From: a virus
IMG/VR virus record: IMGVR_UViG_3300015371_000048
Coordinates: 1-54,154 of that record
DNA: 54,154 bases
Reading direction: 5' to 3' (one strand)
The translations under genes were made by a program, and so were the position numbers. The notes beneath the pieces are model-generated. The model was not told where the DNA came from. It searched no databases and worked only from the letters and a program-made list of their open reading frames with translations. Below are positions 8,065 through 25,292 of the stretch, piece by piece. Within the stretch, counting starts at the first letter, position 1. Every line of letters starts with the position of its first letter.

Positions 8065-9066
8065 CTAGGCAACCGCGTTGATCAGGTAGACACCCATGTC
8101 AGGAGAGACGATCTTCTGGTCGTAGGTCATCTCGGCCTCGATGCGGTCCGAAGCGATGGGCTCCATCCGGAAGTTCTTGATCCGGACACCCTCGCCACCA
8201 CCAGAGCCCAGGTAGCCATTCCAGACGAAGGTGTAACCCGCGCTAGGAGTAAGCAGGGAGGGCGACGGCGGCGCGTAGCAGAAGAGCACCGACTTCTTGT
8301 TCACGATCCGGCTGTAGGAAGCGGCAGCATCCTGCGCAGCAGCATCCGGGATCTGCGGACCAGAAGCCTTCGTCGCCTTGGCGATGATCAGCTCATCCAC
8401 CCCGAAGAAGCTGGCAACCAGATCCTCGGTGATGACACCCTTCTGCGTGTACTTGATGCGGTCGAGGATGGCCGGGTGGTTCTTCAGGGCCTTCCAGACG
8501 TCCGTACCAACAACCATCTTATTGAACTCGAAGCCATTGAGCTCATCGAACGCCAGACCCCAGTCCGTGGTGTTCGCCAGCGGGTCCGAGGTGGCCGAGT
8601 TCCACTGCACGAACTGACCGGTGGTAGGACCGGAGGCAACACCCGTGTACTCAGTGGCCCAGACGCCGTTGGTGAAGTACTTCGACGCCCAGTCGATGTC
8701 CCGCTTGAGGAGCATCTGGTTGGTGAGGAACTTCGTAGCGTCCGAGTCAAGGTTGAAGTTGGAGTCGGCGTTGGCACGGAGCTGGTCGTCAATGTCCTTG
8801 TGCACCGCGTACACGTGGGCAAAGTAGCTATCCGTGGTCACGTTCCAGCCGACACCGGGCGACTCAGTGCTCGGTGCACGACGCTGAACGTCAGTCCGAC
8901 GCCAATCCGACTTCGAGTACTTCCAGTAAAGGTCGCTCTGCTTCTCGACCTTAACCTTGGGGAAGACCCGAGTCGCCAGGAAGCGCTTACTGTCCTGGAT
9001 ATACGCAACACTGACCGACGTCAGTGGCGCATTGACGTGAAGGTCACTCTGTGCGGGGTTCGGCAT
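8065..9066 (-). CDS. Major capsid protein (HK97 fold)
   Basis: This 333-residue protein has features of HK97-fold capsid proteins of the Mu/Bcep-like branch. The N-terminal arm contains SVAYIQDSKRFLATRVFPKV, the middle has NKMVVGTDVWKALKNHPAIL and then VTEDLVASFFGVDELIIAKA-like sequence, and the C-terminus has EAEMTYDQKIVSPDMGVYLI. A strong ribosome site (AAGGAGTAGGAA, then ATG) and GC-rich biased codons fit high expression. It directly follows the decoration protein gene and is followed by a stem-loop. It would form the icosahedral shell. No large N-terminal delta domain is visible, in line with a separate scaffold gene. Confidence 0.92.
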   Translation of the reverse strand: MPNPAQSDLHVNAPLTSVSVAYIQDSKRFLATRVFPKVKVEKQSDLYWKYSKSDWRRTDVQRRAPSTESPGVGWNVTTDSYFAHVYAVHKDIDDQLRANADSNFNLDSDATKFLTNQMLLKRDIDWASKYFTNGVWATEYTGVASGPTTGQFVQWNSATSDPLANTTDWGLAFDELNGFEFNKMVVGTDVWKALKNHPAILDRIKYTQKGVITEDLVASFFGVDELIIAKATKASGPQIPDAAAQDAAASYSRIVNKKSVLFCYAPPSPSLLTPSAGYTFVWNGYLGSGGGEGVRIKNFRMEPIASDRIEAEMTYDQKIVSPDMGVYLINAVA

Positions 9067-9076
9067 TTCCTACTCC

Positions 9077-9505
9077 TTATCGAAGGCGCAGCAGGCAGGG
9101 GAACAGGGCCCCAGCCGACGCCGATCCGAGAGCGACACCAACCTGCAGATCAGGGTCATCGGTACCAGCCACCCAGGTAACGCCTTTACCTGTGGAAGAC
9201 TCGACCTTGACACCATCTGCTGCAGTAACACCACCAGTACCAGCGACGACGAACGAAACACCGCCGATGGCCACCGTGGCAGCCATGTTGGTCACCTGGG
9301 GCTTGTTGTTGAGCACACCGACCACGACCTCGTTAGCCGCAGCAGTAGCAAGCCCACACTGATGAGCACCAGTGACCTTCACGAACTTGTAGAGATTCCC
9401 GGAGTTAGGGCTGAGCGACCCAGGCTGCCCGGGAACACCCGTGTAGACAGCAAGAGACGAGTCAGCGTCCAGGCTGATAGTCCTAAGACTCTCCTCGTAC
9501 GCCAT
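9077..9505 (-). CDS. Head decoration protein (DUF2190-like)
   Basis: This 142-residue protein is rich in Ala, Gly, Val and Thr. It has the beta-sandwich pattern of small capsid stabilising proteins: KFVKVTGAHQCGLATAAANE, then VVVGVLNNKPQ, a VAIGGVSFVVAGTGGVTAAD stretch, and QVGVALGSASAGALFPCLL at the end. This resembles the DUF2190/decoration family. The gene sits between scaffold and major capsid with a good ribosome site (AGGAGGG) and GC-rich codons. It would bind the outside of the expanded capsid. The decoration role is inferred from family pattern and position. Confidence 0.82.
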   Translation of the reverse strand: MAYEESLRTISLDADSSLAVYTGVPGQPGSLSPNSGNLYKFVKVTGAHQCGLATAAANEVVVGVLNNKPQVTNMAATVAIGGVSFVVAGTGGVTAADGVKVESSTGKGVTWVAGTDDPDLQVGVALGSASAGALFPCLLRLR

Positions 9506-9518
9506 GTGCTAGGCCCTC

Positions 9519-10295
9519 CTACCGGGTCCGGTTGCGCTGGTACTCGTCGTACGCAGCGGGGTTGTTAGCGAAGGCCTTAGCAATGGCCGCATCCCGAGAG
9601 ACATCGCCCTTCGAGACATCAGCGGCAAGGATGTCGTCCACGACACCGAACGGGTCGTAGGAGTTCTCCGCTCCACCGGCAGTGCCGAGCTCCTTGAATA
9701 CCTCACCAGCACTGGTCAGCGCCTTGTGCAGCACCACGCAGTCCTCGTAAGGAAGACTCTCAGCAGCACGCATGAGCACCGGGCCGAGCTCGTTCGGGGT
9801 AACCCCGCCGATCCCGTACTCCGCAGCCTTGCTGACGTACTCACGAGTCAGTCGCAGGTCGCGCTCAGCCTTGGCGATCTTCTCGGCCTCAGCAGCCCGA
9901 GCCTCAGCCTTGGCAACCTCGCCCATGGCCTTGCTGATCACATCGTCACGCTCAATGTCCGTGAAAGCCTTGGAAAGATCCTCACGAACCTGCTCAGCCA
10001 GGGACTTCGTAACCAGCTCCTCCTGAGGCTGCTCCTCAGTAACGAACTCGTACTCGTTGTCGTCGTTCTCATCCGTCACCACGAAACCGTTGCCGTCGCC
10101 GTCAAAGACGACCGACCCCAGCTCAAGGGTGTCCGGATCAACGACCGTGCCCTGGTCATCGAAATACGGCACCGCTACCTCCTCGGGAGCCTTCTTGGCG
10201 ATGGCAACTCGTGCGTGCTGGTTCGCAGGGCGATCCACCAGGGAGATCTCATCGATCTCCATGTCAGAAAGCACGTTGACCTTGCGCGATGCCAT
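9519..10295 (-). CDS. Capsid scaffold protein
   Basis: A 258-residue, highly acidic, helix-rich protein just upstream of decoration and capsid genes. Residues near 15-35 contain EIDEISLVDRPANQHARVAI, a sequence pattern common in phage protease/scaffold proteins. Residues about 105-160 are an Ala/Glu/Lys coiled coil (AEARAAEAEKIAKAERDLR). The C-terminal part contains SYDPFGVVDDILAADVSKGD, which includes the DPFG motif seen in neighbouring head proteins, and ends with YDEYQRNRTR, possibly the shell-binding tail. An in-frame TTG at 10301 is an alternative start; the ATG at 10295 lacks a clear ribosome site. The XkdF-type protease at 14.5-15.7 kb is the likely enzyme that removes it. Confidence 0.8.
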   Translation of the reverse strand: MASRKVNVLSDMEIDEISLVDRPANQHARVAIAKKAPEEVAVPYFDDQGTVVDPDTLELGSVVFDGDGNGFVVTDENDDNEYEFVTEEQPQEELVTKSLAEQVREDLSKAFTDIERDDVISKAMGEVAKAEARAAEAEKIAKAERDLRLTREYVSKAAEYGIGGVTPNELGPVLMRAAESLPYEDCVVLHKALTSAGEVFKELGTAGGAENSYDPFGVVDDILAADVSKGDVSRDAAIAKAFANNPAAYDEYQRNRTR

Positions 10296-10344
10296 AATCA
10301 AACAATAAATGTAGCTGCAGCAGGGTCGCTACAGACCTTTTAGC

Positions 10345-10803
10345 TTAGAATCTTGGTTTAATTGGCTTCGAGGAGTCGTAAGTTTCGCTTAGACTCTTTT
10401 GCAATTGCGCGTTGTAGCGCTTGATCCGACGATCAGCAGTCTTCTTACGCCGTGCTGCCACGAATCCCGCAGCACCGGCACCTGTCGCTGCCACGTAGAC
10501 CGGAAACCGTGGCTTGGCATGCATAGCGAAGTTCACAACAGACTTCTTGGGCCCGGGCTTCATCGCGGCCAGCTTCGCTTCGTGCGCGATCTTCTTCTCC
10601 GGATAATCCGAGTAATACGAATTTCTCAGTGCCGAAAGACCGAAGGCAGCACCAACACCACCAACTACACCACCAGCGACATCTTCTACTTTATTAGCGC
10701 GGTTCTTCATGTGTTGCTCGTGGATCTTGGCCTGAATCAGCTCATGGTCAGACTGAGACTTCTTTTTAGAAATCTCGTGGTCTACCCCAAAGGCTGACAG
10801 CAT
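10345..10803 (-). CDS. Glycine-zipper head protein with SAFGVDH N-terminus
   Basis: A basic 152-residue protein starting MLSAFGVDHEISKKK, nearly the same opening as the gene at 21063-21497. Two hydrophobic Gly/Ala segments follow (GGVVGGVGAAFGLSAL near residue 45 and YVAATGAGAAGFVAARRKK near residue 110), each ending in basic residues. The C-terminus is Lys/Arg-rich helix. The start shares a base with the upstream stop. I know no characterised family. The company of portal, protease and scaffold suggests a virion head component that may interact with membranes or DNA; this is inference. Confidence 0.82.
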   Translation of the reverse strand: MLSAFGVDHEISKKKSQSDHELIQAKIHEQHMKNRANKVEDVAGGVVGGVGAAFGLSALRNSYYSDYPEKKIAHEAKLAAMKPGPKKSVVNFAMHAKPRFPVYVAATGAGAAGFVAARRKKTADRRIKRYNAQLQKSLSETYDSSKPIKPRF

Positions 10804-11930
10804 TAGTACGAGTTCTTGCCCTGGTGCCGACCAATCCCATACAGACCAACCCCAGCTGCACCAGTACCGATCTTCTGGTTCCGAGTCAGGCTGGAGAAGC
10901 CAGTCTTCTGGCCAAGGGAAGAACCCAGTCCCTTGATCTTCTCACCAGTAGAAGCAGGCTTCATCGCAGGCCGAGCCAGCATGGGTGGCAGAACCGGCTT
11001 AAGTCCTGCTTTGGAGATCCCAAATGGATCAGCGTTCTTTGCCACTGGCTTAGGAGCAAGGGGTTTCACTACTTTACTACCTACTGGCATGGTGGCCTTG
11101 GAGTTCTGAATATTCTTCAGCGTCTTCATCTTTCGACCATGTGCAGCAAGATCGCCAAGATAGCCGAGGCCCTCAGCCTTTTCGATACTGAAAGGATCCA
11201 TGGACTTTTTCACGTCCTTCTTCTGGGCTTTGTAGTAACCCATACGGTTAGCTCGGCGCGTACCTAACGTATTACCAGTAATGTTACCGGCCACCCCACC
11301 AACACCCATGGCTGCAGGCCCAAACGGAATAGCAGCCATCTGCCCGACAGTGCCACCAGCAATAGAGCCAACCAGTTCATTACCGGCAGCATCAACCTTG
11401 TGACCCTTGCGCCCAGCAACTGCGCCGTGGATACCAGGAAAGAGCGCTGACGTGACAGCTCGGCCAGTACTTGGATTGCCCTTGGACTTGTGGTCCTTCT
11501 TCTTAGAAAGCTCGAAGGGATCCATGTTCTTCACCAATTCCTTCTTGCTTCGGTGTCGGGCAACGCCATAACCAGTACCAACCCCTGCGCCAGTAGCGAG
11601 GAGAGCCTTTTCCTTACCAGAAATCTCGCTCCACTTACGCTTCACGCCACCAGGCCAGGGCTTGATCTGGTCAGGAGGAGCATTGACTGGGGTCTGTGGT
11701 TTAGGGGCTTCAACTTTAATACTCTTAACCCCTTTAATAGGGGCGGTGGCATTGGGCTTAGCCAGGTTTTCTGCAGCTACCCCGAAGCGTGGCAGCTTGC
11801 TATATACGCCCTTTTTGATCTTCTTTTTCTTAGCCTTGATCTTGCCGCCGTATTCCTTGTCCCACTTCGAGGCGATCTCAGGGTGAACGGCATGCATGTA
11901 TCGGCGCTGCTTGTCAGATTTGTATGGCAT
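10803..11930 (-). CDS. Basic glycine-zipper head protein with three DPF motifs
   Basis: A 375-residue, very basic protein. The N-terminus MPYKSDKQRRYMHAVHPEIA resembles a short module found on many uncharacterised phage proteins. Glycine-zipper segments occur at about residues 108-125 (ALLATGAGVGTGYGVARHR), 184-225, and 352-368 (KIGTGAAGVGLYGIGRHQG). Between them a short motif recurs three times: MDPFELSKKK (136-145), MDPFSIEKAEG (244-254) and ADPFGISKAGL (300-310). The rest is Lys/Pro-rich. It is translationally coupled to its neighbours through shared stop/start bases. Function is unknown; repeated motif plus zipper units suggest an internal capsid protein that is bound or cut at the DPF sites. 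Confidence 0.82.
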   Translation of the reverse strand: MPYKSDKQRRYMHAVHPEIASKWDKEYGGKIKAKKKKIKKGVYSKLPRFGVAAENLAKPNATAPIKGVKSIKVEAPKPQTPVNAPPDQIKPWPGGVKRKWSEISGKEKALLATGAGVGTGYGVARHRSKKELVKNMDPFELSKKKDHKSKGNPSTGRAVTSALFPGIHGAVAGRKGHKVDAAGNELVGSIAGGTVGQMAAIPFGPAAMGVGGVAGNITGNTLGTRRANRMGYYKAQKKDVKKSMDPFSIEKAEGLGYLGDLAAHGRKMKTLKNIQNSKATMPVGSKVVKPLAPKPVAKNADPFGISKAGLKPVLPPMLARPAMKPASTGEKIKGLGSSLGQKTGFSSLTRNQKIGTGAAGVGLYGIGRHQGKNSY

Positions 11931-14266
11931 TAGTCAGGCTTCCGCTGCACAGGGATCAGCTTGTGACCGCCCTCTAACCGCCGCTCCATGCGTGCCATAC
12001 GACCAAGCTTATTACCGGCGTCTCGATAAATTGCCGCTTTCTCTTTCGATCCAGCAATGCGCGCTAACCGAGCATCCCGATACAACATGCCAGCCTTGTT
12101 GTGAGTCTTAGCTGCTCCAGAGGCCATCCGAGCAGGCACATACGACTTACGGATAGCTGGACGCGGCTTGACCTTAGGTCGCTTCACATAGCGGCGGTCG
12201 TGCTCGTAGTACGTGCCGCCTGCTCCAGTGAGCGCACCGGCAGCCACTAACGTCTTGCCGCCAGGAGTCAGCCCACCACCAGTACTCGTGACAATCTTCT
12301 GGCCATCGAACGTATGAACGATCTTTGACTTGGGCTTGAAGATCCAACCCCCTGAGGTCACCGTCTTCACCGCAGGGGCGTCATTAATAGTAATCTGCTC
12401 GACCTTTTTAGTACCCCGAGCCATATTGGCGATGTTCGAGGCAAGGCTCTTCTCAATGTGCTGGTCAAGCGGAACTAAGGACTTGGCCATTTTCATCTTC
12501 TTGTTCCGGTGATGGGCATATGCCATTCCTGCTCCCGCGCCAGCAGCCAGGGTTGCCGCATATACAGAATCCCTGGACTTGTAACCCAATAATCGTTGTG
12601 CGCGCCAGTGGGGGAGTTCTTTCGGGTACTTGGTGTAGATCTTGTCCCGGATGTGGAACGGGGTGTTCTTCTCAGGACGGGCCCCAGGAGCTAGACCAGC
12701 CTTTTGCTTGTGCTTGGCCCAGATGTCCTCTTGCTCGGGGGTCAGGCCCTTCTTGTTGCGCTGAACCTTCAGGTAGCCCTTGAGACCCTGACCACCGACG
12801 ATGTAGCCAGCCTCGGTACCCGCCGCTCCTGCGATCCCACCCAGAGCGAGATTCTTCTTCTCATCAGAAGTGGACTTCTTGGCAATCGGCTGGACCTTGG
12901 TGCGCTGCCGTAACTTGTGCGTGGCGTACCCACCAACCGTTAAGGCCGCAGCGACATTAGTTACCCGAGACGGGCTGACCAGTTCCCGGAAAGTAGTGGC
13001 CTTGGGGACGCTGGCAGCGACTGTCTTGGCTTTGGTTGCTTTAGCTGATGCCTTCTCGGCAGCCTGCTTGGCCCGTCGCTCTTGCTGCCCTGCGTAAGCC
13101 TTGGCCCAGTCATCGTCCGAACCAGGGAAGTTAATGGGTTTGGGTGGCAAGTTCTTTTGGATAGAACGCTTGGGCTTGAGGAACGTTAACTGGTCACGGT
13201 GGGTGAGAATACGCTGGTCACCCTTACCGATGACAGTGAACATCCCATTGCCGTGGTAGGCCCGGAACGACACCATGCCATGCGACTTGTGTAGGAAGGC
13301 ACGGGGACCAGTCCAGGGCAGCTCAGGCAGCATGGCTTTGCCAAAGTCATCCATTCGCATCTGGCGAAGCTCAATCTTGCGAGTCGGATACTGTACTGGC
13401 TTGTCCTTCCAGTACTCGCCCTCGCCTGGGGTCTTCTTGCCAGTTTTGGCATTGATCTGGAACCGACCGCGCTTAACTCCTGCTTTGACACGCTTAACCC
13501 GTAATTTGGGCCCGTACTTTGCAGCAGGAACTCCCTTGCTCACATCACCAGATACTGCCTTGATGACACGACGGCTAGCTGTCAGCGCCTCGCCCAGGTG
13601 GCGATTTTGTTTAGAGGCGATCCGGTAGACAGTGGCCTCGCCTTCCATATTCTGTGCTTGCTTTGGCCACTTCTTTTGATTCTGGCGATTGAACAAGAAC
13701 ATATCTCGGTCAATCCGAGCATTTTTGTATGCCGTCTGAGCATGCCGAGCTAAGACAGTTTTGGGATCGCCTAATTCTTTCTTGACCTTGCCTTTGCGCT
13801 TCTTCTCCTTGTAAGCCAGATACCCAATAGCGCCACCATAGCCAGCAAGACCAGCATTGCGAATACGAGCAGCTTTAGTAGCTTTGTTGCCCCATTTCTT
13901 TGCTTCATTTAAAGACTCGCCCGTGCGCTTCAGATGATAAAGAGTCTCTTCGCTCATCGGCACTGGACGTGCGATGGGCTTGTGCATCCGGTTGTAGTCC
14001 TCTAGCCGGATGAGAGCCTTGGAAGAAGATGGCTTGCCTAACGGCTTGCCCATGGTGGCAGTGGTCTCGTGTCGGAAGTCTCGCCGGTCATGTGCGGCAT
14101 TCCGCCTAAAAGTGGCTGACCTAAGCTGAGCGCTGAACTTGTGATAGTTAGCCTCATCTTGGTTCATGAGCTTTACTTCATGCGCAACAGCAGCAGTTAA
14201 CCCGCTGGCACCACCGGCACCTGCTACGACGTACTCACGCTTCTGTGGCTTCTTGTCAGAGGGCAT
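11930..14266 (-). CDS. Large basic multi-glycine-zipper head protein
   Basis: A 778-residue, strongly basic protein of unknown family. At least six Gly/Ala-rich hydrophobic segments end in His/Tyr/basic clusters, for example YVVAGAGGASGLTAAVAHEV near the start, AGLAGYGGAIGYLAYKEKKR near residue 160, GIAGAAGTEAGYIVGG near 480, AATLAAGAGAGMAYAHHRNK near 575 and VAAGALTGAGGTYYEHDRR near 690. Between them are Lys/Arg-rich stretches and short IxKS-like sequences. A central part (GRFQINAKTGKKTPGEGEYW) looks more globular. The ATG at 14266 is chosen because it overlaps the upstream stop by 11 nt; a TTG lies four codons upstream. Its size and basic charge fit a packaged internal protein. Confidence 0.82.
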   Translation of the reverse strand: MPSDKKPQKREYVVAGAGGASGLTAAVAHEVKLMNQDEANYHKFSAQLRSATFRRNAAHDRRDFRHETTATMGKPLGKPSSSKALIRLEDYNRMHKPIARPVPMSEETLYHLKRTGESLNEAKKWGNKATKAARIRNAGLAGYGGAIGYLAYKEKKRKGKVKKELGDPKTVLARHAQTAYKNARIDRDMFLFNRQNQKKWPKQAQNMEGEATVYRIASKQNRHLGEALTASRRVIKAVSGDVSKGVPAAKYGPKLRVKRVKAGVKRGRFQINAKTGKKTPGEGEYWKDKPVQYPTRKIELRQMRMDDFGKAMLPELPWTGPRAFLHKSHGMVSFRAYHGNGMFTVIGKGDQRILTHRDQLTFLKPKRSIQKNLPPKPINFPGSDDDWAKAYAGQQERRAKQAAEKASAKATKAKTVAASVPKATTFRELVSPSRVTNVAAALTVGGYATHKLRQRTKVQPIAKKSTSDEKKNLALGGIAGAAGTEAGYIVGGQGLKGYLKVQRNKKGLTPEQEDIWAKHKQKAGLAPGARPEKNTPFHIRDKIYTKYPKELPHWRAQRLLGYKSRDSVYAATLAAGAGAGMAYAHHRNKKMKMAKSLVPLDQHIEKSLASNIANMARGTKKVEQITINDAPAVKTVTSGGWIFKPKSKIVHTFDGQKIVTSTGGGLTPGGKTLVAAGALTGAGGTYYEHDRRYVKRPKVKPRPAIRKSYVPARMASGAAKTHNKAGMLYRDARLARIAGSKEKAAIYRDAGNKLGRMARMERRLEGGHKLIPVQRKPD

Positions 14267-14465
14267 GGTAAACACCAAAGGCAGACTTCTTCAGCCGACC
14301 TTTTGTGCCGGTCAGAACGTCAGAGAGCGTGATCTTAGGGTTACGAGTCTTTAGATACTCATAACGACGCATCAGCTGAGCCTGATCAGGCTGCATCGTG
14401 CCCCAGGGGCCTTCGACGCCTTTGATCCCTCTGACCCTAAGACGCGCTGCTTTGTTCACTACCAT
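14256..14465 (-). CDS. Short head-module protein ending in SAFGVYHAL
   Basis: A 69-residue basic protein between the protease gene and the large glycine-zipper gene. The body holds MQPDQAQLMRRYEYLKTRNP and an ITLSDVLTGTKG segment. The C-terminus, LKKSAFGVYHAL, carries nearly the same SAFGV(D/Y)H motif that opens the genes at 10803 and 21497. The stop overlaps the next gene start. No ribosome site stands out at the ATG, so translation may be coupled to the protease gene, whose stop is 7 nt upstream. No known family recognised. Confidence 0.72.
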   Translation of the reverse strand: MVVNKAARLRVRGIKGVEGPWGTMQPDQAQLMRRYEYLKTRNPKITLSDVLTGTKGRLKKSAFGVYHAL

Positions 14466-14472
14466 TGGCCGG

Positions 14473-15747
14473 TCAGTCCAGCTCTTTAGTGATGCGGCTG
14501 CCTTTGCCGTGAATGGAGAAAGCTAACCTTTCCCCGCTCTTAACCTTTGCCCATACGTCGTCATCTTTGATCTTGAACCCACACCACCATCCGGTAGGGA
14601 TGCTCTTCGCCGCCTCTTCCGAGAGCCCCATCTGCTGAAGCTTGTCGGGGGTGGCGATAAAGGATTCCACCAGATCAGAAGTGTGCTTGGGTGCATCGCC
14701 ATCCCTTTGATGCATGTCGCCGCCAATACGCGAACCCATCACGTAGGCGTAGGCAGACTTCTCGATCTCATCGATGGGAGCCCAGTCGTTCTGTAAGTCC
14801 ACAACGGGCTCACCGTCAATTTCACTCAGTGAGCACCAACCAAAAACCAGCCGCTTGTCTTCGTTGACCTTGGAGATCTCACCGTAGAAGCCGTAGTCAA
14901 CTTGATCATCAGCGGCTTTATTGACCTTCTTGCCCTGGTGATAACCAACCGCAGCCCCACCGGTAGCACCAGTGAGGACAGCAGCGCGCACCAGGTAGCG
15001 GGGACCAGCGGCCTTCTCTTCTTGCTGGTAGGCCCTCAGCATGGACCGACGCTGCCGCTTCACCGAAGGAAGACTGCGATAGGTAAAGTCAGCTAATCTA
15101 TTGGTCTGCTCCTTAGCGGCTCTGCCAGTAGCCTTGGTAGCAGCCCAGCCGAGTCCGATATCCCAAGGCTTGTTGCGGCTCATCCCAGCCCAACCCCGAG
15201 CAACGTTGCCAGCTTTACCCTTTTCAATAATCTCTAGGGCTTGCTCGGTAGTAATAAATCCTTGCCGCCTAGCCTCAACGACCTGCTCGTAGGCCTTGGC
15301 GACTTCCTTCTTTTTCTTGTGCGGGTCCTGGTTGGCCTTGTACTGACGGTGTAATGCTCGGGCCGCTAGTGCATCCGCGCCTAGCTCAGCCCCGTGAAGC
15401 CCTAACCATCCCGCTCCGACAGCAGCAGCGCCTAATGCTGCTTTCCGACCCGCAGGAACCTTGCCCAGCTTCTCCATGCCCGGGAGAGCATCCTGAACCG
15501 GGCCTTTAGGAGTTCGAAAGTTCTTGGGGTTGAACGAGCCACCGTGCTCTTTAACGGTCAGATAGGTAGCGTGCAGTCCCGCCGTACCAGCCAGAGCAGT
15601 GCCAGCCATGCCAACCTGAGCTAACCGGCGCTCCTTCTTACGCTGAGCGGGAGAGTTGACATGGACATCCGACTGGCTAGGGCCGAACTTGGCAACAAGC
15701 TCCCGCTGGTCGATGAAGTCACCACCGAGCAGGGTCGCGTAGTCCAT
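14473..15747 (-). CDS. XkdF-type prohead protease with glycine-zipper N-terminal region
   Basis: A 424-residue protein. The last about 145 residues match the XkdF-like serine protease domain (peptidase family S78_2): YGFYGEISKVNEDKRLVFGW, PVVDLQNDWAPIDEIEKSAY, GGDMHQRDG, TSDLVESFIATPDKLQQMGL and GWWCGFKIKDDDVWAKVKSG. The conserved His (MHQRDG) and Ser (VESF, or FSIHG near the end) are candidate catalytic residues. The first about 270 residues are unusual for the family: basic, with glycine-zipper segments (VGMAGTALAGTAGLHATYL, AALGAAAVGAGWLGLHGAE and VLTGATGGAAVGYHQGKK). The protease would cut scaffold and perhaps the other head proteins during capsid maturation. Confidence 0.85.
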   Translation of the reverse strand: MDYATLLGGDFIDQRELVAKFGPSQSDVHVNSPAQRKKERRLAQVGMAGTALAGTAGLHATYLTVKEHGGSFNPKNFRTPKGPVQDALPGMEKLGKVPAGRKAALGAAAVGAGWLGLHGAELGADALAARALHRQYKANQDPHKKKKEVAKAYEQVVEARRQGFITTEQALEIIEKGKAGNVARGWAGMSRNKPWDIGLGWAATKATGRAAKEQTNRLADFTYRSLPSVKRQRRSMLRAYQQEEKAAGPRYLVRAAVLTGATGGAAVGYHQGKKVNKAADDQVDYGFYGEISKVNEDKRLVFGWCSLSEIDGEPVVDLQNDWAPIDEIEKSAYAYVMGSRIGGDMHQRDGDAPKHTSDLVESFIATPDKLQQMGLSEEAAKSIPTGWWCGFKIKDDDVWAKVKSGERLAFSIHGKGSRITKELD

Positions 15748-15768: not shown

Positions 15769-17772
15769 TCACAGTGGAATGAGCTGGACTTCCATCCAAC
15801 CCTTTAATTTGCCCTGGGTGCCCTCTGGCGCAATGTTGCCCTGGTCAGTAATAAAGGAATGAGTGCGAATCTTCCGTACTGTATACAACCCAGTCAGTTT
15901 CGGGCTGAGTGGGTGTACTTCATTCTCCTGACCGTGGTAACCCTCAGGGAAGGTGAAGACGGCAGGTACTAATCGTTCAGAGTAGGAAGCGGCGTAAATA
16001 TCCGAACCGCTCTTGCGCAGCATGTCCACCACAGCAAGGTTGGCATCTGAACCCACCTCTGAAGCTTGGTGCATGAGCTCTTCACGCCGATCCCAGAAGG
16101 AGCCAGTGATATTAAGGTCATCAGCCACCTTCTCGACATTGGCATCAGAAAGATCCTCCAGCGCCCTTCGGGGGTTAAGCGCGACTTCTTCCTGAAGTCC
16201 GTACTCGAACTCGTCAGCTTCTTTATCGTCATCGTCATAGGGGGTCTCATCTTGATAACGAGACTCCAGCGCCCCACCGATATGGCTACCTAGCCCCATA
16301 TCCGGATCAACCACCGAACCAATGAGCGGGTGTCGGTTTTGGATATCTAAGCTAATGACCTGACCAACGTGGAACTCATGCCATTGCGAATCGGTAGGAC
16401 CGAGATCGCCCCTAGAAGTAGTCCAGACGCTGCCATAACCACGAAGTTCGTTGTAGTCGTCAACCGGCACATAGGCCAGTGCCCTGCTGGAACCTTCCTC
16501 CGGAGGCTTAGGAGGCTTACCGCCCTTTAAGCCAAGAATGAACTGCTGAATCAATAGAGGATTGGACTGCGTTAATGGATTATGTGCAGTAAGAGGATTG
16601 ACCTCAGTTAATAAATTGTGCTGGGTCTGCGCTAACGGATTCACCAACGGGTTGGCACCCTGCTTCAACGGGTTGGTGTCAATAAGCGGATTGATCTCAG
16701 GAGCAGTAATTTCTGTTTCCTGAGTGCGCTCCTCTACCCGGGAGAACCGGCCATGCCGATCCCGGTCATACATGTCCGTTCCGACCGCTTTGATAAGGGG
16801 TTGCGGAGCAGCAACATAATTAGTGTTATAGATCTGCTTCAGCTTCTTGCGGGGTTTCTTTGAAGCAACCACCACCTGCTGTTGCTGCGGCGGAGCCATC
16901 ACCCTGTCAAGGAAGATATTTTTCTCCAGCATCCCTTCGGTCTTGGGCAAAGCTAGTTCGAGTTGACATCTGCAGTTCGGATGCACGCCAGGGGCAAAAA
17001 CTTTTCCTGAAAATGTCTCGTACCACTCATTGAGCGGAATCTCTTCGTTGTCCAGTGGACCGCAGGTGGGACAGACCTTCTCATCCTCAGCAGTGCGCCA
17101 ACGCTTCTGCGTGCCCTGTGGAAGTTGACCAGTCTTCTCTAAGTGATCCCATAAGGCGACTTGGCCGATCTGACGCATCTGCCAGGCCTCGGTGTGACCA
17201 ATGATGTCAGCCCGTTGTAATAACTTCTTGTCCAGTTCCTTGATAGCCATTGGAGAGACTGCAGTCTGATACGGCCCCTCCTTGCCTCGTTGCGACAGGA
17301 TCCAGGAACGCATCTGATTTGGGTCTAATCCAAAGCCAGCGGCAGCCCTCTCCAACGCAATAGGCTCGGCCACCCCGTGGGCAAGCTCAGCCTCATAGGC
17401 CCCCTGGAAAGCCTCCATTGAGGTGTCGGTGAGATACCCGCCGAGAGTTAAAGCGGCAGACTCGGTGTAGTCATAGACCTCAGGCGCTAACAGACCCGCA
17501 GGCCCAAAAGCCCTTCGGATGTTCATCCGTAAGAGATGATGAAAGAGCCCAGTAGCTACTTCCCGCTGTACGGGCTCTCGGTTGCGCATCTTGGCTGACA
17601 TCAGCTTCCGCCATACCAAGAAAGCAGCTGCCAGAGCGATCACCAGATTACGAGTGTGGTGATTCCCTGACTCTGGGAGATTTGACTCCAAGAGATGGTT
17701 GTCGATGCCCAGCGGAGATTGACCGGCAGCAAGGAAATCTGCTCCCGGGTCAGTGAACAGCGGCTGGGTCAA
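15769..17772 (-). CDS. MuF-like minor head protein with NPL repeats
   Basis: A 667-residue protein. Residues about 100-275 are the phage Mu F/SPP1 gp7-like domain, ending with the diagnostic WRTAEDEKVCPTCGPLDNEE and PGVHPNCRCQLEL. A short hydrophobic helix (LVIALAAAFLVWRKLM) lies near residue 45. Residues about 360-406 are a run of NPL tripeptides (seven NPL and one NLL). The C-terminal 250 residues form a further domain of unknown type (ALAYVPVDDYNELRGYGSVW onward, with an acidic DDDDKEADEFEYG stretch). MuF proteins sit at the portal and are involved in head assembly or are ejected with DNA. The start codon is TTG, spaced after AAAGG; the gene abuts the one upstream. Confidence 0.86.
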   Translation of the reverse strand: MTQPLFTDPGADFLAAGQSPLGIDNHLLESNLPESGNHHTRNLVIALAAAFLVWRKLMSAKMRNREPVQREVATGLFHHLLRMNIRRAFGPAGLLAPEVYDYTESAALTLGGYLTDTSMEAFQGAYEAELAHGVAEPIALERAAAGFGLDPNQMRSWILSQRGKEGPYQTAVSPMAIKELDKKLLQRADIIGHTEAWQMRQIGQVALWDHLEKTGQLPQGTQKRWRTAEDEKVCPTCGPLDNEEIPLNEWYETFSGKVFAPGVHPNCRCQLELALPKTEGMLEKNIFLDRVMAPPQQQQVVVASKKPRKKLKQIYNTNYVAAPQPLIKAVGTDMYDRDRHGRFSRVEERTQETEITAPEINPLIDTNPLKQGANPLVNPLAQTQHNLLTEVNPLTAHNPLTQSNPLLIQQFILGLKGGKPPKPPEEGSSRALAYVPVDDYNELRGYGSVWTTSRGDLGPTDSQWHEFHVGQVISLDIQNRHPLIGSVVDPDMGLGSHIGGALESRYQDETPYDDDDKEADEFEYGLQEEVALNPRRALEDLSDANVEKVADDLNITGSFWDRREELMHQASEVGSDANLAVVDMLRKSGSDIYAASYSERLVPAVFTFPEGYHGQENEVHPLSPKLTGLYTVRKIRTHSFITDQGNIAPEGTQGKLKGWMEVQLIPL
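16555..16692 (-). repeat. NPL tripeptide repeat array inside the MuF-like gene
   Basis: Eight tripeptides, seven NPL and one NLL, are separated by one to five residues. Codons differ between copies (AATCCG, AACCCG, AATCCT, AATCCA; CTT, TTG, TTA, CTA), so the repeat is kept at protein level rather than by recent DNA duplication. It links the MuF domain to the C-terminal domain. Confidence 0.85.
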
Positions 17773-20700
17773 CTAAGACCTTTGCTGCGGGAATCCAGGC
17801 GGAGGCCAACCAGGCATCCCAGGAATTTGCTGGTGCAGTTCTTGCGGAGAAGGCATCCGGTGCTGTGCACGAGCCTGCGGAGTATTAATCCCGCCCTGCG
17901 GCTGATTCACCTGCATGATCATCGGACTCCCGAAGCCAAAGGCAGCCCGTTGCTCGTCTAGCCGAATACGCTCTTCCTCGGCCTTCTCGGCTTCCCGCCA
18001 CCTTCTAGCCGCCTGGCGAGCCTTGATGTTGTTCTTGATCCGCTGCTTCAGCTCATCAGTGAAGGCAGGGTCAACACCAATACCCTGGCTGCGCTTTAAG
18101 GTCTCGACATCCTTCTTGTAAGTCTCGTCCAGCGCTTCCTTCAGATCCTGACTGTCCGGGTTGCCAATATCAGCATTAATACCCAGGTGGCCCATCTGAC
18201 GACGGTAGGTGTCTAAGTACTCTTCAGGCTGCCTGCCAATGGCGTACTCACTACCGAAGTCGTACGTCTTCTCCGGGTTGGACAGCCCAGCAAAGTCGGA
18301 GTACTTGCCACCGATGTCAGCGGCATTCGGGTTGCGCAGGTTATTACGAACCTCGGTCGGAATCGTGAGGCCCTGCATGACCGGGTTGCTGGCCAGTCGG
18401 TCAACCTCTTGCAACAGGCGCTCTCGCGTCTTAGCCGGGTTGTCCTGGTAGGCAGCCAGCAGTTCATCCTTCGATCCGCCAAGTAAGGGGAAGCCAGCAC
18501 CCCGAACGTGATCGGTAGTAACCCCGGCAGGCAAGTTATTACGCACATAGTCATGCGCAGCCTCAACGGCGTTCTGACCCTTAATCTGCTGATCCAGATC
18601 AGAAGGAGTACCACCAGGCACGATGGGCTGAGTCCGACCCGAGTCCTCATACGGCTTCTTCGGGCCACCACGCTGCTGGAACTTGCCGCCCTGCGGACCA
18701 CCATTCTGCCAGCGAATCTGGTCAGCGGTGATCTTGCCAGTCTGCTTACCTTCGCGGGTGAGCTGAGCACCCACCCCGCCGATGGTGGTGTCGTAGTACC
18801 CGGCAAGGGCTCGTTCCGGACGGTTGAAGCGAGGCTTGACATAACCGATGTCGGAGCGGTTGGGCTGGAATGGCTGATAAGAGACATTGGCAATGTAATA
18901 CGGGAACTGCTCTCGCAGTGCCTTTAATGCCTTGTCGTAACCAGGACCATTGAGTTCAAGCGGCTTCTGCTCAGCCACGTACTCGACCTGCTTTTGCTCT
19001 GCGTACTTCTCCCACTGCGGCTGTAAGCCAGCCACCTGAATAACTTGCATGGGCGTAGCCACCGCAGCAGAGGCTTGTAAGCGAGCAGCCTCCTCATCCC
19101 ACTCCGGAGCACCTGGATAGGTTGGGTGGTGAATTTGACTCGATGCCACCTGGCGGTCCACATAGGACTGGGCAAAGTCAGTCCACGATGGGACGTGATC
19201 AGAGCCGTGCTTGCCCGGTAAAGCCTGGGCTCGGTCGTCTAAGAACTCAATGGCAAACTGCTGCTTGCGCGCCTGCGACATCTGTGGGTCGATGCGCTCT
19301 TCAGTCTTGAGCTCCTCAAGACGGTCCTCGAACTTCTTACGGTCTAATTTCGGGTTGTAGCGCTTCGCAGCCTCAGCCTTAAGCTCCACTAACCGGTCCT
19401 CAGGGATACCCGCCAGGGTGACCTCCTGGGACTTCACAGCGTCTAACAGGTGTCCGTAACGACCGACCATCCGAGCAGCTTTGTCGTTGTACCTTCTTGA
19501 CCCTCGGAAGGACTCATCGAAGTCAACGGTGTAGACGCCGTTGTGCGAGACGACTGTGACGCTCTTTGCTCCGGTGATGAGCCCTGCATAGATGTCTTCG
19601 GTAGTGGGCCCACCCCAGGCTCGGGTGCGGATGTACTCGCCACCTTTAACCCGAGAAAGTGTCTTGAGGTTGAATGGGAGGTACCAGTCTTCGCCGTACC
19701 CAACAGCCTGCGAGACGACTTTGCCATTTCGATCAATGATCATACCCTCGGATGGCGGAATGACCCCAGACTGGGCCTGCAGTCGAACCAGGTCTTTATC
19801 AGCTAACCGACCACGGAAATACTCGATAACAGGGGAAGCCTGGTGCTCCACCTGGATCCCATTACGGGAGACGTACTCCTTGTTGTACCCGTAGATGAGT
19901 GCATTACGAGCGCTCTCCGGGTTATCAAAGGCGCGACTGTAACCACTGACGGTGGCCTGTAAGACAGGATCCGGCTTGCGCTCCACACCTCGGTATCGGT
20001 AGGCAGCTCGGTCAGCGTGCGGGCCAATGACTTTATCTGCCTCAGAACCGTACTGGCCCACAAAGTCAGCAGACTGAATCGCCAGCCGCATTCGATTAGG
20101 AACAAGCGGCCCGATAGCAGAATCCAGCAAGCGTGAGCCTAAGTGCAGGCGTCGGTAGACCTTGGCCCGAGGATTACCAATCTCCTCGGGCTTTTGCGCG
20201 TTCCAGTCCCCTGCGAAAGAACCTAACCGGTCAGCACCCTTGAAACGACCAGCGTCATTACGCTCGAAAGCATTCGAGGCCAGTGTCCCGGCATTGTCAC
20301 CCAATGCCCCTGCCAGGTCGAAAGCTGCACCCTGTACATTGATATCGCCCATTTGCTGTTCGGCTCTTGGGTTAACCGCAACCGAGGCTCCAATGAGCCG
20401 ACCACCTTGAGCAAAGTGCCTAGCATCGATAGCTGGTTGCGGGTTGCCTGCTTCAACAACTGGCAGATCACTAACTGAGGTGTGCTGCACACCATGCTTT
20501 GTTTGATAGGTCAGTAATAACTTGCCCTCGTTGGCAGGCAGTGAAATAAAAGGCCGCAGTGCATTCTGCACCTGCATGTAGGCCTCTTGGTAGGCCAGCC
20601 GGTCCTGTTGCGACATCCGCTCAGGAGTGGGCGCAATACCTAACCTGTTGCCCTGCGCAGCGCTAACTGGCTTGGTCTTGCCGGAATAAGAAATACGGTG

Positions 20701-21066
20701 GTGCATGGTCCGGAACTGGCCACGGAAGTCACGGTCCTGCTGCGAGGCGTAGGCACGCCGCTGCGAAGGGGTGAAGTCAAAGTCCTTGGAGATATCCACC
20801 GACTTCTGGATCAGCTCAGAGACGTCCTCGCCGTTCTTAGCCCGTAAGACAGTTTCTCGGGCGAGGTTCTTCTTCAGCCGCTCAGCACGCTTCTGGACGA
20901 CCTCATCCACTCGATCTTGGATAATGTCGTGATGGGTGATCATGTCATACTGCAGCCCAGCGCCAGCGATGATGGCGGCATACAGCTTGGCCTCATCATC
21001 CGTCTCGCACTTCATGATCCGGTCATAGACACGCTTAGCAACCGGATCAATGGGGGTTAACTTCAC
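17773..21066 (-). CDS. Large head-module protein of unknown function, 1097 aa
   Basis: A 1097-residue soluble-looking protein between the small SAFGVDH gene and the MuF-like gene. The GTG start overlaps the upstream TGA and follows GGGGAAGCA. The N-terminal 150 residues are charged and helical (KRAERLKKNLARETVLRAKN). A mixed alpha/beta central part includes YGEDWYLPFNLKTLSRVKGG, RTRAWGGPTTEDIYAGLI and SVTVVSHNGVYTVDFDE, which suggest a folded, perhaps enzymatic or binding domain. The C-terminal 300 residues are helical and end in a Pro/Gln/Gly-rich tail (GMPGWPPPGFPQQRS). No catalytic signature is recognised. Its place suggests a virion internal or portal-associated protein. Confidence 0.85.
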   Translation of the reverse strand: MKLTPIDPVAKRVYDRIMKCETDDEAKLYAAIIAGAGLQYDMITHHDIIQDRVDEVVQKRAERLKKNLARETVLRAKNGEDVSELIQKSVDISKDFDFTPSQRRAYASQQDRDFRGQFRTMHHRISYSGKTKPVSAAQGNRLGIAPTPERMSQQDRLAYQEAYMQVQNALRPFISLPANEGKLLLTYQTKHGVQHTSVSDLPVVEAGNPQPAIDARHFAQGGRLIGASVAVNPRAEQQMGDINVQGAAFDLAGALGDNAGTLASNAFERNDAGRFKGADRLGSFAGDWNAQKPEEIGNPRAKVYRRLHLGSRLLDSAIGPLVPNRMRLAIQSADFVGQYGSEADKVIGPHADRAAYRYRGVERKPDPVLQATVSGYSRAFDNPESARNALIYGYNKEYVSRNGIQVEHQASPVIEYFRGRLADKDLVRLQAQSGVIPPSEGMIIDRNGKVVSQAVGYGEDWYLPFNLKTLSRVKGGEYIRTRAWGGPTTEDIYAGLITGAKSVTVVSHNGVYTVDFDESFRGSRRYNDKAARMVGRYGHLLDAVKSQEVTLAGIPEDRLVELKAEAAKRYNPKLDRKKFEDRLEELKTEERIDPQMSQARKQQFAIEFLDDRAQALPGKHGSDHVPSWTDFAQSYVDRQVASSQIHHPTYPGAPEWDEEAARLQASAAVATPMQVIQVAGLQPQWEKYAEQKQVEYVAEQKPLELNGPGYDKALKALREQFPYYIANVSYQPFQPNRSDIGYVKPRFNRPERALAGYYDTTIGGVGAQLTREGKQTGKITADQIRWQNGGPQGGKFQQRGGPKKPYEDSGRTQPIVPGGTPSDLDQQIKGQNAVEAAHDYVRNNLPAGVTTDHVRGAGFPLLGGSKDELLAAYQDNPAKTRERLLQEVDRLASNPVMQGLTIPTEVRNNLRNPNAADIGGKYSDFAGLSNPEKTYDFGSEYAIGRQPEEYLDTYRRQMGHLGINADIGNPDSQDLKEALDETYKKDVETLKRSQGIGVDPAFTDELKQRIKNNIKARQAARRWREAEKAEEERIRLDEQRAAFGFGSPMIMQVNQPQGGINTPQARAQHRMPSPQELHQQIPGMPGWPPPGFPQQRS

Positions 21067-21497
21067 TGCTTCCCCTTTTTGTGCGTCAACGAATAACCGG
21101 TAGCTGCTCCCCCTACTGTAGCTGCGGTGCCAAGAGCGACACCTGTCTTACCACGGTGGGTGTAGCCAAGGATGTGGAAAATATTAGAACCTGGCACTTC
21201 TTTAGGCATCTTGCGCATGTATTTCGCAGTGCGATTGCCGTATTTAGCAGTATGCACTGAATTGAAGCGGTCGTACTTACTACGCGACCAGCCTTTAGGC
21301 ACTAAGTACTCTTTGCCTTTGGAATTCTTAAAACGATTGAAATTGGTCTTCTGGTTGTAGTGCTTTAAGCCATAACCAGCGCCTTGGTAGACACCCTGAC
21401 CAGCAACAGCGCCACCAGCAATGGCGGCTACATCTTTTTCCTTCTGTCGGTCGGCCTTGGAGATAAAGCCGTGATCGACCCCGAATGCCGAGATCAT
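21063..21497 (-). CDS. Glycine-zipper head protein with SAFGVDH N-terminus (portal side)
   Basis: A basic 144-residue protein opening MISAFGVDHGFISKA, closely related in its start to the protein at 10345-10803. Glycine-zipper segments lie near residues 25-45 (AAIAGGAVAGQGVYQGAGYG) and 119-138 (TGVALGTAATVGGAATGYSL), the second ending in HKKGKQ. The middle is Tyr/Lys/Arg-rich (GWSRSKYDRFNSVHTAKYG). It overlaps the portal stop by 4 nt and the next start by 4 nt. No characterised family is recognised. It appears to be one of five related head-module proteins. Confidence 0.82.
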   Translation of the reverse strand: MISAFGVDHGFISKADRQKEKDVAAIAGGAVAGQGVYQGAGYGLKHYNQKTNFNRFKNSKGKEYLVPKGWSRSKYDRFNSVHTAKYGNRTAKYMRKMPKEVPGSNIFHILGYTHRGKTGVALGTAATVGGAATGYSLTHKKGKQ

Positions 21498-23206
21498 TTC
21501 TTCTTCTTAGCGGCCTTCAGCGCAGCCAGCTTCTGAGCGTGGGTCTGCTTTGCCTGGGACATGTTCTGCCGAGTCTGCATTCTTTGCGCAGTCTGGTTTT
21601 GGTTAAATTGGTCACGGCTCTGCCGCAGACCCATCTTGTGCTTGTCTTCAGCAAACTTCTGCTGTTGCTGCATGGCCTGCAGTTTGGTCTGATGCTGCTC
21701 ATCCTTTTGCTGCATCTGCTGTTGCTGCTGCATCATCTCCGGGTTAATGCCCTGATCCATCATCTGCATGGACATCACGCCCTGCTGAGCCTGCTGCTGC
21801 AGAGCCAGTAACTCCATCTGCTGCTGCGCCACTCTAAGAATGTCAGCCTGCTGCGACTCCAGCTCTAACTGCTTCTCAGCATCCTCATCTAGCTCAGGCA
21901 CCCGTGCAGCCTTGCGGATGAACTTCTCCATCTCAGCATCCGGGAACCAGTTCATCCCGGCAGAGGTGGTCTGCTGCAGGAAGGCCCCAAGCTGCGTTAA
22001 GTCCGGGGGATCGATGTCAGACGGTACGAGAGTGGGAAGCTCATCTGGCTTCCATCCGTTCGCCAGGAAGAGCCTCGGAATGGCGTGCCGATTGAAGACA
22101 TCGGCAATGCTTTGAGCGAATGAGTTAATTGCGGTACGGAACAGGCCGCTCTTGTCCGTGTGAAGAGCATACGAACCTTCGCCTTCATGACCAACGAGAA
22201 TAAAGTCCGCTAGCACGGTCATCAGCATTCTTTGCTCGTACCGCTGGATAATCCCAGAAGTATCGAACTGCCTGGACCCGCCAGAGGCAAGAAGCTGGAA
22301 ATCGAACAGCGGCTGCTTGGTGTCCTGATCGAATTCCGAAGGGATGAGAATACCTTCCTGCTCATCCCTACGCACTGAGCGCACCATCTTGCGGAAAGCC
22401 TCAACCATTTTAGCTTGATCGGTACCTGGCTTGGCATTGAGATAGCTAGCCGGAACCTTGCCGACCGGCATACCTGCTAGGTCACGCTCCGCACCGATGG
22501 CCTCAATTTCCTCGATGCGCTTCTTCATATACCAGGGCCGGTAGGCATTGCGTAAGACGCTTCGACCCTCGGGAGAGTTCTTCACCGAGTTAGAGCGGAA
22601 CAGCAGGCACTTCTCAATGGGCAGTACCACGGTTTTGTAATAAGGTGGCGACAGCTGAATCATCGCCTGAATACCACCCGACTCATCGAAGACCCACCTC
22701 TGTAAGGTCTCCTGGGAACGAATCGGGATCTTGCGCCAACCGATCTTTCCATCATTGAATTTAGACTTCTTGGTGGGATCTGTCTCCCACGGCCCCACTC
22801 GGCGCTTGTAGACGATCTCGTGGTAGGACCAGCCATACGGCAGCATGGTCAAGATCTCAGAAATGAGATCATCCCAAGAGTGCGACATATCTTTCATGCA
22901 CTCTTCGACAAACTCGGCAGCCTTTTTATCCTCTGCAGAGTCAGAGGCAGGCTCAACGCGCCAGTCAATCTGGCGAAGTAATCTATCTAAAGCGAACAGC
23001 AACGCCCCAATAATGGGGTCGTTGTCGGCCATCTCCCGATAGATCTGGACGGCCTTGCGACCTCGAAGTTGAGGCAGGAACTCCTCATCGAGGTAGCCAC
23101 CGGTCCTTTTAAGACCAGAAGAACCAAGCTCGATGGTAGGGCTGACCCGCTTGGGAACCTCATAGGGGACATCAAGATCGACGCCCTGATATTCCGGTCG
23201 GGTCAT
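21494..23206 (-). CDS. Portal protein (Mu gp29-like)
   Basis: A 570-residue portal, recognised from the DUF935/Mu gp29-type pattern: MADNDPIIGALLFALDRLLR, WRVEPASDSAEDKKAAEFVE, LPYGWSYHEIVYKRR, GRSVLRNAYRPWYMKKRIEE and FLANGWKPDELPTLVPSD. It forms the dodecameric ring for DNA entry and exit. The last about 130 residues are a Gln/Met-rich coiled coil (QQQADILRVAQQQMELLALQ and QMQQKDEQHQTKLQAMQQQQ) ending in a Lys-rich tail, longer than typical and perhaps reaching into the head. It directly follows the large terminase gene and has a GGGAGA ribosome site. Confidence 0.93.
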   Translation of the reverse strand: MTRPEYQGVDLDVPYEVPKRVSPTIELGSSGLKRTGGYLDEEFLPQLRGRKAVQIYREMADNDPIIGALLFALDRLLRQIDWRVEPASDSAEDKKAAEFVEECMKDMSHSWDDLISEILTMLPYGWSYHEIVYKRRVGPWETDPTKKSKFNDGKIGWRKIPIRSQETLQRWVFDESGGIQAMIQLSPPYYKTVVLPIEKCLLFRSNSVKNSPEGRSVLRNAYRPWYMKKRIEEIEAIGAERDLAGMPVGKVPASYLNAKPGTDQAKMVEAFRKMVRSVRRDEQEGILIPSEFDQDTKQPLFDFQLLASGGSRQFDTSGIIQRYEQRMLMTVLADFILVGHEGEGSYALHTDKSGLFRTAINSFAQSIADVFNRHAIPRLFLANGWKPDELPTLVPSDIDPPDLTQLGAFLQQTTSAGMNWFPDAEMEKFIRKAARVPELDEDAEKQLELESQQADILRVAQQQMELLALQQQAQQGVMSMQMMDQGINPEMMQQQQQMQQKDEQHQTKLQAMQQQQKFAEDKHKMGLRQSRDQFNQNQTAQRMQTRQNMSQAKQTHAQKLAALKAAKKKK

Positions 23207-24769: not shown

Positions 24770-25292
24770 GCCAAGGCCAGTGGAACAGTAAATTGGCACA
24801 GCTAGGCGAAGCCGGGAAGGCCGACTTGAAAATAGCTGCCTGGCGCTTGGCCTCAGCTAATTGCGCAGGAGTGGCATGCTTTAACTGCGGGTTGTTATTA
24901 AAGCTTTGATTGATCAGATCGTTGATCTTCTTGGACTGGATATTGCGGTCTAAGCACCGCTGGTAAGTGTCCTTGCGATAATGCACGTAAGAATTAAAAG
25001 CGAAGATAGAAACGGCCAACACACCCAGAGTCACTACAGCCATACCAATGGTGAGACGACGAGTGACTTTCAGATCCGCACGTACCGGTAGCGCAGCGTT
25101 GTCTACCTCTTGCTTGATGTCCTCTGGCTGGACAGCAGACTCGGCTAACTGACGTAGGGCGATTTGCTCTTCCTGCATGTGGTTGAGCGTGGTGAGCGCG
25201 CCAGATAAATTGGAGACCTGAGTGGACAGACTCAACGTGGCGGCCTTGAGCCCATCGACCTCAGCGGCAAGCTGCCGAACGGTCTCAGGCAT
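24756..25292 (-). CDS. Membrane protein with coiled coil in lysis region
   Basis: A 178-residue protein. The N-terminal 75 residues are coiled coil (VDGLKAATLSLSTQVSNLSG). One transmembrane helix follows (LTIGMAVVTLGVLAVSIFAF, about residues 80-99), and then a mostly helical C-terminal domain with two cysteines. A strong ribosome site (GGAGGACCATAAAG) precedes the ATG. Single-helix coiled-coil proteins near endolysin and holin genes are frequent in actinophages; they may be lysis accessory or envelope-disrupting proteins, but some are structural. The role here is not shown by the sequence. Confidence 0.78.
   Translation of the reverse strand: MPETVRQLAAEVDGLKAATLSLSTQVSNLSGALTTLNHMQEEQIALRQLAESAVQPEDIKQEVDNAALPVRADLKVTRRLTIGMAVVTLGVLAVSIFAFNSYVHYRKDTYQRCLDRNIQSKKINDLINQSFNNNPQLKHATPAQLAEAKRQAAIFKSAFPASPSCANLLFHWPWHDNN

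Follow-up and report, generated by a model that had tools for sequence, protein, structure and literature searches.

The virus record IMGVR_UViG_3300015371_000048 of IMG/VR, a 54-kb stretch of DNA (54,154 nucleotides, hereafter the window), belongs to a siphophage whose head module lies on the − strand and encodes a set of basic proteins with glycine-zipper segments. Two of these proteins start with the same short peptide, M-x-SAFGVDH..ISK, and this tag is spread over many otherwise unrelated proteins of dozens of related phages. These proteins share a basic charge and a characteristic gene position, and their tags vary from one phage lineage to another, with H, D, or R as a lineage-specific residue. 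Judging from sequence comparisons, it is fairly probable that the peptide is a docking tag that loads basic glycine-zipper cargo into the prohead, from which the cargo would later be ejected with the DNA. A preliminary description of this DNA had singled out five open reading frames (ORFs), all present on the − strand at their proposed coordinates, but it had missed both the common peptide tag, which was noticed by reading the zipper proteins side by side, and an additional ORF of 69 residues.

The window contains two N-terminal tags, one C-terminal tag, and three variants. The first tagged protein (21063..21497, −), with 144 residues and a net charge of +18, is encoded directly after the portal gene; it begins with MISAFGVDHGFISK (21456..21497, −; identified by sequence, pattern match, and family statistics) and has a single zipper (21081-21146). 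The second (10345..10803, −), with 152 residues and a net charge of +15, begins with MLSAFGVDHEISK (10765..10803, −; sequence and pattern match) and has two zippers (10627-10680 and 10453-10506). The 69-residue ORF (14256..14465, −; net charge +10), which lies between the protease gene and that of a 778-residue protein, ends in the C-terminal tag SAFGVYHAL-stop preceded by two lysines (KKSAFGVYHAL-stop; 14256..14285, −). The three variants, which fit DPFx(I/L)xK, are all found in a modular protein of 375 residues (10803..11930, −; net charge +48; zippers at 11559-11606, 11412-11459, 11286-11339, and 10830-10871), in which an N-terminal module is followed by modules each opened by a DPF tag: DPFELSK (11502..11522, −), which aligns with SAFGVDHGGISK of relatives, DPFSIEK (11178..11198, −), and DPFGISK (11010..11030, −).

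Many such proteins share the start M-x-SAFGV[DE]H-x-[IV]SK, and we defined the core motif as [SND][AP]FG[VI][DE][HDR], which N-terminal tags continue with xx[IV]SK. For a non-circular count, only loci retrieved by similarity to the portal, the protease, or a 1097-residue neighboring protein were used, while loci fetched through the tag itself (L199-L253) were dropped. In these motif-independent loci, the core motif occurs 152 times in 8,623 ORFs; for 200 reorderings of its residues, the mean count is 0.10 and the highest is 3. All 152 tagged ORFs are net basic, versus 73% of all ORFs, and 80% of them contain a zipper segment, versus 11% of all ORFs. The same picture emerges at other levels: 27 of 40 whole records hold 73 tag sites, nearly always on one strand per record, with no occurrence of the reversed pattern, and the strict DNA form of the tag matches 56 stretches in IMG/VR, where the reordered DNA form matches none.

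Across all forms there are 165 unique tag instances, 155 of which lie within eight codons of the start, mostly from the second residue after the methionine. A Shine-Dalgarno-like site precedes 68% of the N-terminal tags, compared to 18% for any ATG. The information content is 3.2 to 4.3 bits at most tag positions (4.3 at F and G) and falls to about 0.5 directly after the tag, and synonymous codons are used freely within it. Because third codon positions vary and the information drops after the tag, the sequences indicate that it is a peptide signal and not a DNA signal. Without their tags, the 154 proteins tagged at the N-terminus group into 87 families. Within groups of contigs, which may contain near relatives, variable tag positions agree between proteins with unrelated bodies in 433 of 442 pairs (305 expected) and 434 of 442 pairs (333 expected), and the V/I alternation is free. 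This agreement between genes with unrelated bodies suggests that each phage has one receptor for its tag.

No cultured phage found in this analysis has the tag. Four cultured phages with related portals that served as controls in the record scan (Arthrobacter phage Kovu, Microbacterium phage ValentiniPuff, Roseobacter phage CRP-6, and Pseudomonas phage phiMK) are without it, and tblastn found none in cultured phages and plasmids, for which the 23-residue query is weak. Three matches in bacterial genomes (GTDB) are internal to unrelated proteins and were dismissed as chance. The exact motif is absent from 5.39 million open-access papers, a search that did not extend to subscription papers.

The position of the tag within the protein is variable. 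In the relatives, 33 tags are C-terminal, for example KKNLSAFGVEH-stop and KRDTTSAFGVDH...GQHRETEN-stop, and more than ten true internal copies occur at junctions, after a lysine, where the ORFs resemble fused modules. The internal class of this tally also contains numerous proteins with a start assigned too far upstream, so that N-terminal cases are under-counted in it. The variant DPFx[ILV]SK is internal. Of the 12 cases outside the window, 11 belong to basic zipper proteins, a class that makes up 23% of residues; in alignments, it stands where the tag stands in relatives. Since C-terminal tags exist, these sequences make a docking motif more likely than a mere propeptide.

We retrieved 80 related loci by the portal, 39 by the 1097-residue protein, and 75 by the protease. 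The tagged genes lie mainly around the portal, protease, scaffold, and capsid genes. In the near group, where portals are 54-68% identical, basic zipper proteins are found at the same positions with sequences that mostly cannot be aligned; looking for the set in other phages, as the preliminary description had proposed, reveals one system that recurs at the same place. Tagged or zipper genes occupy the interval between protease and scaffold in most of the 47 loci that have both genes: of the 114 ORFs there, 63 contain a zipper, a tag, or a DPF variant, and 83 are clearly basic. In locus L163, three consecutive genes of this interval are C-terminally tagged. In outgroup loci with a related protease (L019-L021, L060, and L194), this interval contains no tagged or zipper genes.

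The glycine-zipper segments were identified by a fixed rule: at least 12 residues without D, E, K, R, N, or Q, at least 40% Gly plus Ala, at least two small-xxx-small pairs, and a mean hydropathy above 0.3. By this rule, the estimate of about 15 Gly/Ala segments of one design in five proteins turns out to be exact: 15 segments are found in the five head-module proteins, compared to a mean of 0.91 and a maximum of 5 in 1,000 shuffles of each protein's own residues. The 144-residue protein, with one segment, is not significant by itself (P 0.10). The proposed Tyr/His end and Lys/Arg cap are likewise real and one-sided, at the C-terminal end of the segments. Among 195 non-redundant segments of the family, the combined share of Tyr and His is 1.5% in the middle of a segment and 3.7% at its first four positions, but 14.9% at its last four. 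Lys and Arg together contribute 35% of the six residues that follow a segment, compared to 29% of the six that precede it and 21% at other sites. Of 100 complete tagged proteins with zippers, 81 have the zipper close to the C-terminus, and about a third of all tagged proteins have none.

Glycine spacings of 4 and 8 are enriched (z 4.8 and 4.5), but spacings of 5 and 7 are raised too, and GxxxGxxxG motifs are not clearly above the within-segment shuffle (120 of 195 versus 108.5), for which reasons "zipper" is a fair description and not a proven structure. AlphaFold2 predicts one module (residues 131-250 of the 375-residue protein, 26 sequences) as two long helices forming a hairpin, with a mean predicted local distance difference test score (pLDDT) of 77; given this model of moderate confidence, the segments are probably helical. 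The predicted fold has no match in the PDB, and the zipper module has none in 50,697 phage records. Pfam glycine-zipper families do not match the window proteins, and Gly-zipper_YMGG matches one of 86 tagged proteins (1.4e-4). The median 19-residue hydropathy is 1.04, with only three of the 195 segments reaching the usual transmembrane level of 1.6; the zippers are too weakly hydrophobic for classical membrane helices. They may serve to pack helices of different cargo molecules against each other or to touch a membrane transiently at exit. The few modules that can be aligned between and within phages, such as NPSxxR...FPGxHGAVAGRKGxK...GTRRANRxGYxK (26 sequences), conserve residues other than Gly and Ala, for example, H38, R27, and K48.

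Most of the tagged bodies have no known domain. One is a GNAT protein above the Pfam cut-off, and three contain HExxH...EE[AG]RA without a Pfam match. An untagged Dps-like ferritin (Pfam Ferritin 9e-14) is fused to a basic glycine-zipper tail and encoded between protease and scaffold (L013:19479-20399, +). As far as can be judged from sequence, this content fits injected effectors in part. The zincin-like pattern HExxH...EE[AG]RAD occurs, without a Pfam match, in both tagged and untagged basic proteins (L145:618-1499, L183:204-980, L206:4903-5664, L009:4052-5697, and L011:2430-4220); the zincin type has been reported among phage polyvalent effectors (PMC5512222). A tagged protein that resembles a small ADP-ribosyltransferase by eye (L238:3657-4127, +) was set aside, as neither Pfam nor a PDB sequence search confirmed the resemblance. 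Also by eye, the 778-residue protein of the window (13170-13490, −) and a tagged 630-residue protein (L013 5600-5750, +) have in common a short β-rich stretch (xGRFRIxxKG...HRDQLTFLKPK / PRKDITFYKPK), which may be an SH3-like domain.

An end-tag that is conserved while its cargo is not, encoded beside scaffold and protease, looks like a targeting signal, and we therefore propose the following model, in which the glycine-zipper proteins are head cargo. During prohead building, the tag would bind one common head component, for which the scaffold, the portal, the MuF protein, the 1097-residue protein, and the capsid lining are candidates, and any protein tagged at either end or at an internal junction would become enclosed. 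Because the bodies are basic, they should bind the surrounding packaged DNA, and they would exit together with it when the phage infects. The zipper hairpins, capped by Tyr/His-Lys/Arg and mostly near the C-terminus, would probably mediate helix–helix contacts, whether among cargo molecules or at the host membrane on exit, and the protease, which also bears zippers, may use a related route into the prohead. Packaging, docking partner, ejection, and effector role are what we infer in this model. The preliminary description had also taken the proteins to be packaged, on the grounds of gene order; this is still the best reading, now with the firmer argument of a tag that resembles a targeting signal. 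The evidence is about evenly balanced for the more specific proposal of modular cargo loading, in which a single tag per phage lineage, placed at the N-terminus, the C-terminus, or a junction, would load fast-changing, unrelated proteins, many with a zipper hairpin, for injection.

Several points weigh against a docking tag for head cargo. The tag also occurs at C-termini and internally, unlike the capsid targeting sequence (CTS) of T4, and cannot be only a removable propeptide; the 778-residue protein and the protease have no clear tag. Some tagged genes lie outside the portal–capsid interval; in records that are complete or long, they are found after the capsid gene or upstream of terminase or tail genes. 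The agreement of tags within a phage could also stem from duplication of tagged genes, and no tagged protein of this group is known to be in the particle.

Other explanations have to be set against this one. The proteins could be structural, forming an internal core or a DNA-condensing lining of the prohead akin to T4 core proteins, with the tag binding scaffold or capsid and nothing being delivered. Their position between protease and scaffold, their strong positive charge, and the small Lys/Gly/Ala proteins without zippers among them would all agree with this, but bodies so extremely diverse (87 families), with turnover even between close relatives, are better suited to arms-race cargo, and the GNAT and zincin-like bodies also speak against it; we regard a purely structural role as doubtful, if well worth keeping in mind. 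Equally, the proteins might never enter the virion and instead act in the infected cell, where the motif would recruit them to a host or phage complex. Docking motifs of soluble complexes are likewise found at C-termini and internally, and some tagged genes do lie outside the capsid interval. Since the genes cluster among, and alternate with, those for portal, protease, scaffold, and capsid, we consider this quite unlikely.

The preliminary description had favored ejection proteins whose glycine-zipper helices build a channel through the host envelope. Several features are compatible with this: the segments are real, their Tyr/His-Lys/Arg end is of the kind found at interfaces, the model is a helical hairpin, albeit one of moderate confidence, the zipper usually sits near the C-terminus, and the genes are part of the head module. 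The near-absence of segments at transmembrane hydropathy nevertheless speaks against channels, as do the third of tagged proteins without a zipper and the lack of any match to ejection-protein families in Pfam or PHROG. Moreover, the phage has a tape measure gene and hence a long tail, so that a podovirus-type ejectosome is not needed, and its closest cultured portal relatives infect the Gram-positive Arthrobacter and Microbacterium, which require no periplasmic conduit. The channel proposal is accordingly not borne out, and we rate it as unlikely. Finally, the similarity might reflect low-complexity composition, which the preliminary description itself had raised as a refutation, or a nucleic-acid element. 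The bodies are indeed rich in Gly, Ala, and Lys, but composition-matched shuffles and residue-order permutations fall short by two orders of magnitude, third codon positions vary, and the alignable modules conserve residues other than Gly and Ala, all of which makes this explanation extremely improbable.

The tagged and zipper genes are set in the head module as follows. After the terminase (23228-24799, −) and the portal (21494..23206, −; phrog_113 5e-97, Portal_Mu 2e-38) come the 144-residue protein, the 1097-residue protein (17773..21066, −), and a MuF-like head morphogenesis protein (15769..17772, −; Phage_Mu_F 1.8e-7), and the remaining members of the set then precede the scaffold (9519..10301, −; conserved in 67 relatives, with weak Pfam and PHROG matches), in keeping with the placement claimed earlier: one gene follows the portal, and the others lie between MuF and scaffold. 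A small head protein (9077-9505, −) and the major capsid protein (8065..9066, −; phrog_1005 1e-82) follow, succeeded by the neck, tail tube, and tape measure genes (tape measure at 3-3821, phrog_13339 1e-19). The large basic zipper protein without a clear tag (11930..14266, −) has 778 residues, a net charge of +98, and zippers at 14180-14233, 13811-13855, 12815-12850, 12509-12568, and 12206-12253. The 1097-residue protein, a group-specific neighbor and candidate partner of the system, is conserved in 61 relatives. It has no match in 50,697 cultured phage records and no relative in a GTDB search; an AlphaFold2 model of its core (pLDDT 91) has no PDB match, one BFVD homologue is from an uncultured phage, and there are weak matches to minor capsid proteins. 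Elsewhere in the window, the phage encodes a DNA polymerase III α subunit with a PHP domain (48907-51600, −), which is ~50-59% identical in several relatives.

The prohead protease (14473..15747, −) had been described as fused to a zipper protein, and it does combine a basic glycine-zipper part with three zippers (residues 1-285) and a Peptidase_S78_2 (XkdF) domain (residues 290-419; E 2e-17, 63.8 bits against a Pfam cut-off of 24). The zipper extension is present in 56 of 73 protease relatives. The N-terminus of the protease, SQSDVHVNSP, resembles the strictly conserved capsid N-terminus QSDLHVNxPLT (8065-9066), and in a subset of relatives (only 9 of 73 by the pattern used) it reads FGDAVDPREAYDVSKMDASEVHVNG, which resembles both the DPF tag and the capsid N-terminus and was considered as a possible tag or capsid mimic. 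The scaffold was considered as a source of the tag and rejected: SYDPFGVVDDILAADVSKG of the window scaffold is not conserved in 67 related scaffolds.

To our knowledge, phage proteins injected with the DNA are known for few phages, because such cargo changes too quickly to be traced by homology. With a tag that is conserved although its cargo is not, candidate injected proteins can be recognized from sequence in a group of phages of which we found no cultured member; if our reading is right, the tag would mark injected effectors in uncultured phages from sequence alone. The tag (e.g., SAFGVDHGEISK) is amenable to a reporter-fusion packaging test, as done for T4 and P1. If it functions at either terminus, it would also be a practical means of getting proteins into the heads of long-tailed phages.

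The closest known parallel is the CTS of the T4 internal proteins and Alt, a peptide of ~10 residues that is both required for a protein to enter the prohead core and enough to bring it there (PMC9026906; PMC5694885). There, too, a short N-terminal peptide is found on otherwise unrelated, often basic, small products of head genes (IPI, IPII, IPIII, and Alt), and Alt shows that enzymes can be carried (PMC9026906; PMC5694885). The feature of one N-terminal sequence joined to unrelated mature parts is found here as well, with 155 N-terminal tags on 87 body families. Compared with the T4 CTS, the tag appears to have a different sequence, is spread over ~87 families in one phage group, and is not a strictly N-terminal propeptide, as shown by its C-terminal and internal copies, including that at 14256-14285 in the window; the phage is, moreover, a siphophage with MuF and an XkdF-type protease instead of T4 gp21. 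In P1, N-terminal residues likewise send large injected anti-restriction proteins, the Dar proteins, into the head, with 30 N-terminal residues of DarB being sufficient to target a reporter, but the Dar proteins have no common N-terminal consensus (PMC9024508), whereas one consensus is common to all proteins here. MuF polymorphic toxins and polyvalent proteins have head-delivered effector domains, including zincin-type peptidases and other enzymes, encoded beside portal and MuF (PMC5576092; PMC5512222), and the present system would resemble them in this. Their effectors are, however, fused to a MuF or portal domain or combined in one giant protein, whereas the tagged proteins are separate ORFs, with the MuF gene adjacent, that have a short tag and zipper modules in common. 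The ejection proteins of podoviruses (P22 gp7, gp16, and gp20, and the T7 inner core) are internal basic or hydrophobic head proteins thought to exit with the DNA, as is proposed for the tagged proteins; they differ from the latter, which match no known ejection or internal virion protein family in Pfam or PHROG, are only weakly hydrophobic, and belong to a phage with a long tail and a tape measure. The preliminary description had stated that no described system has this layout. That statement is nearly right, but the underlying principle of a capsid targeting sequence has precedents in T4 and P1.

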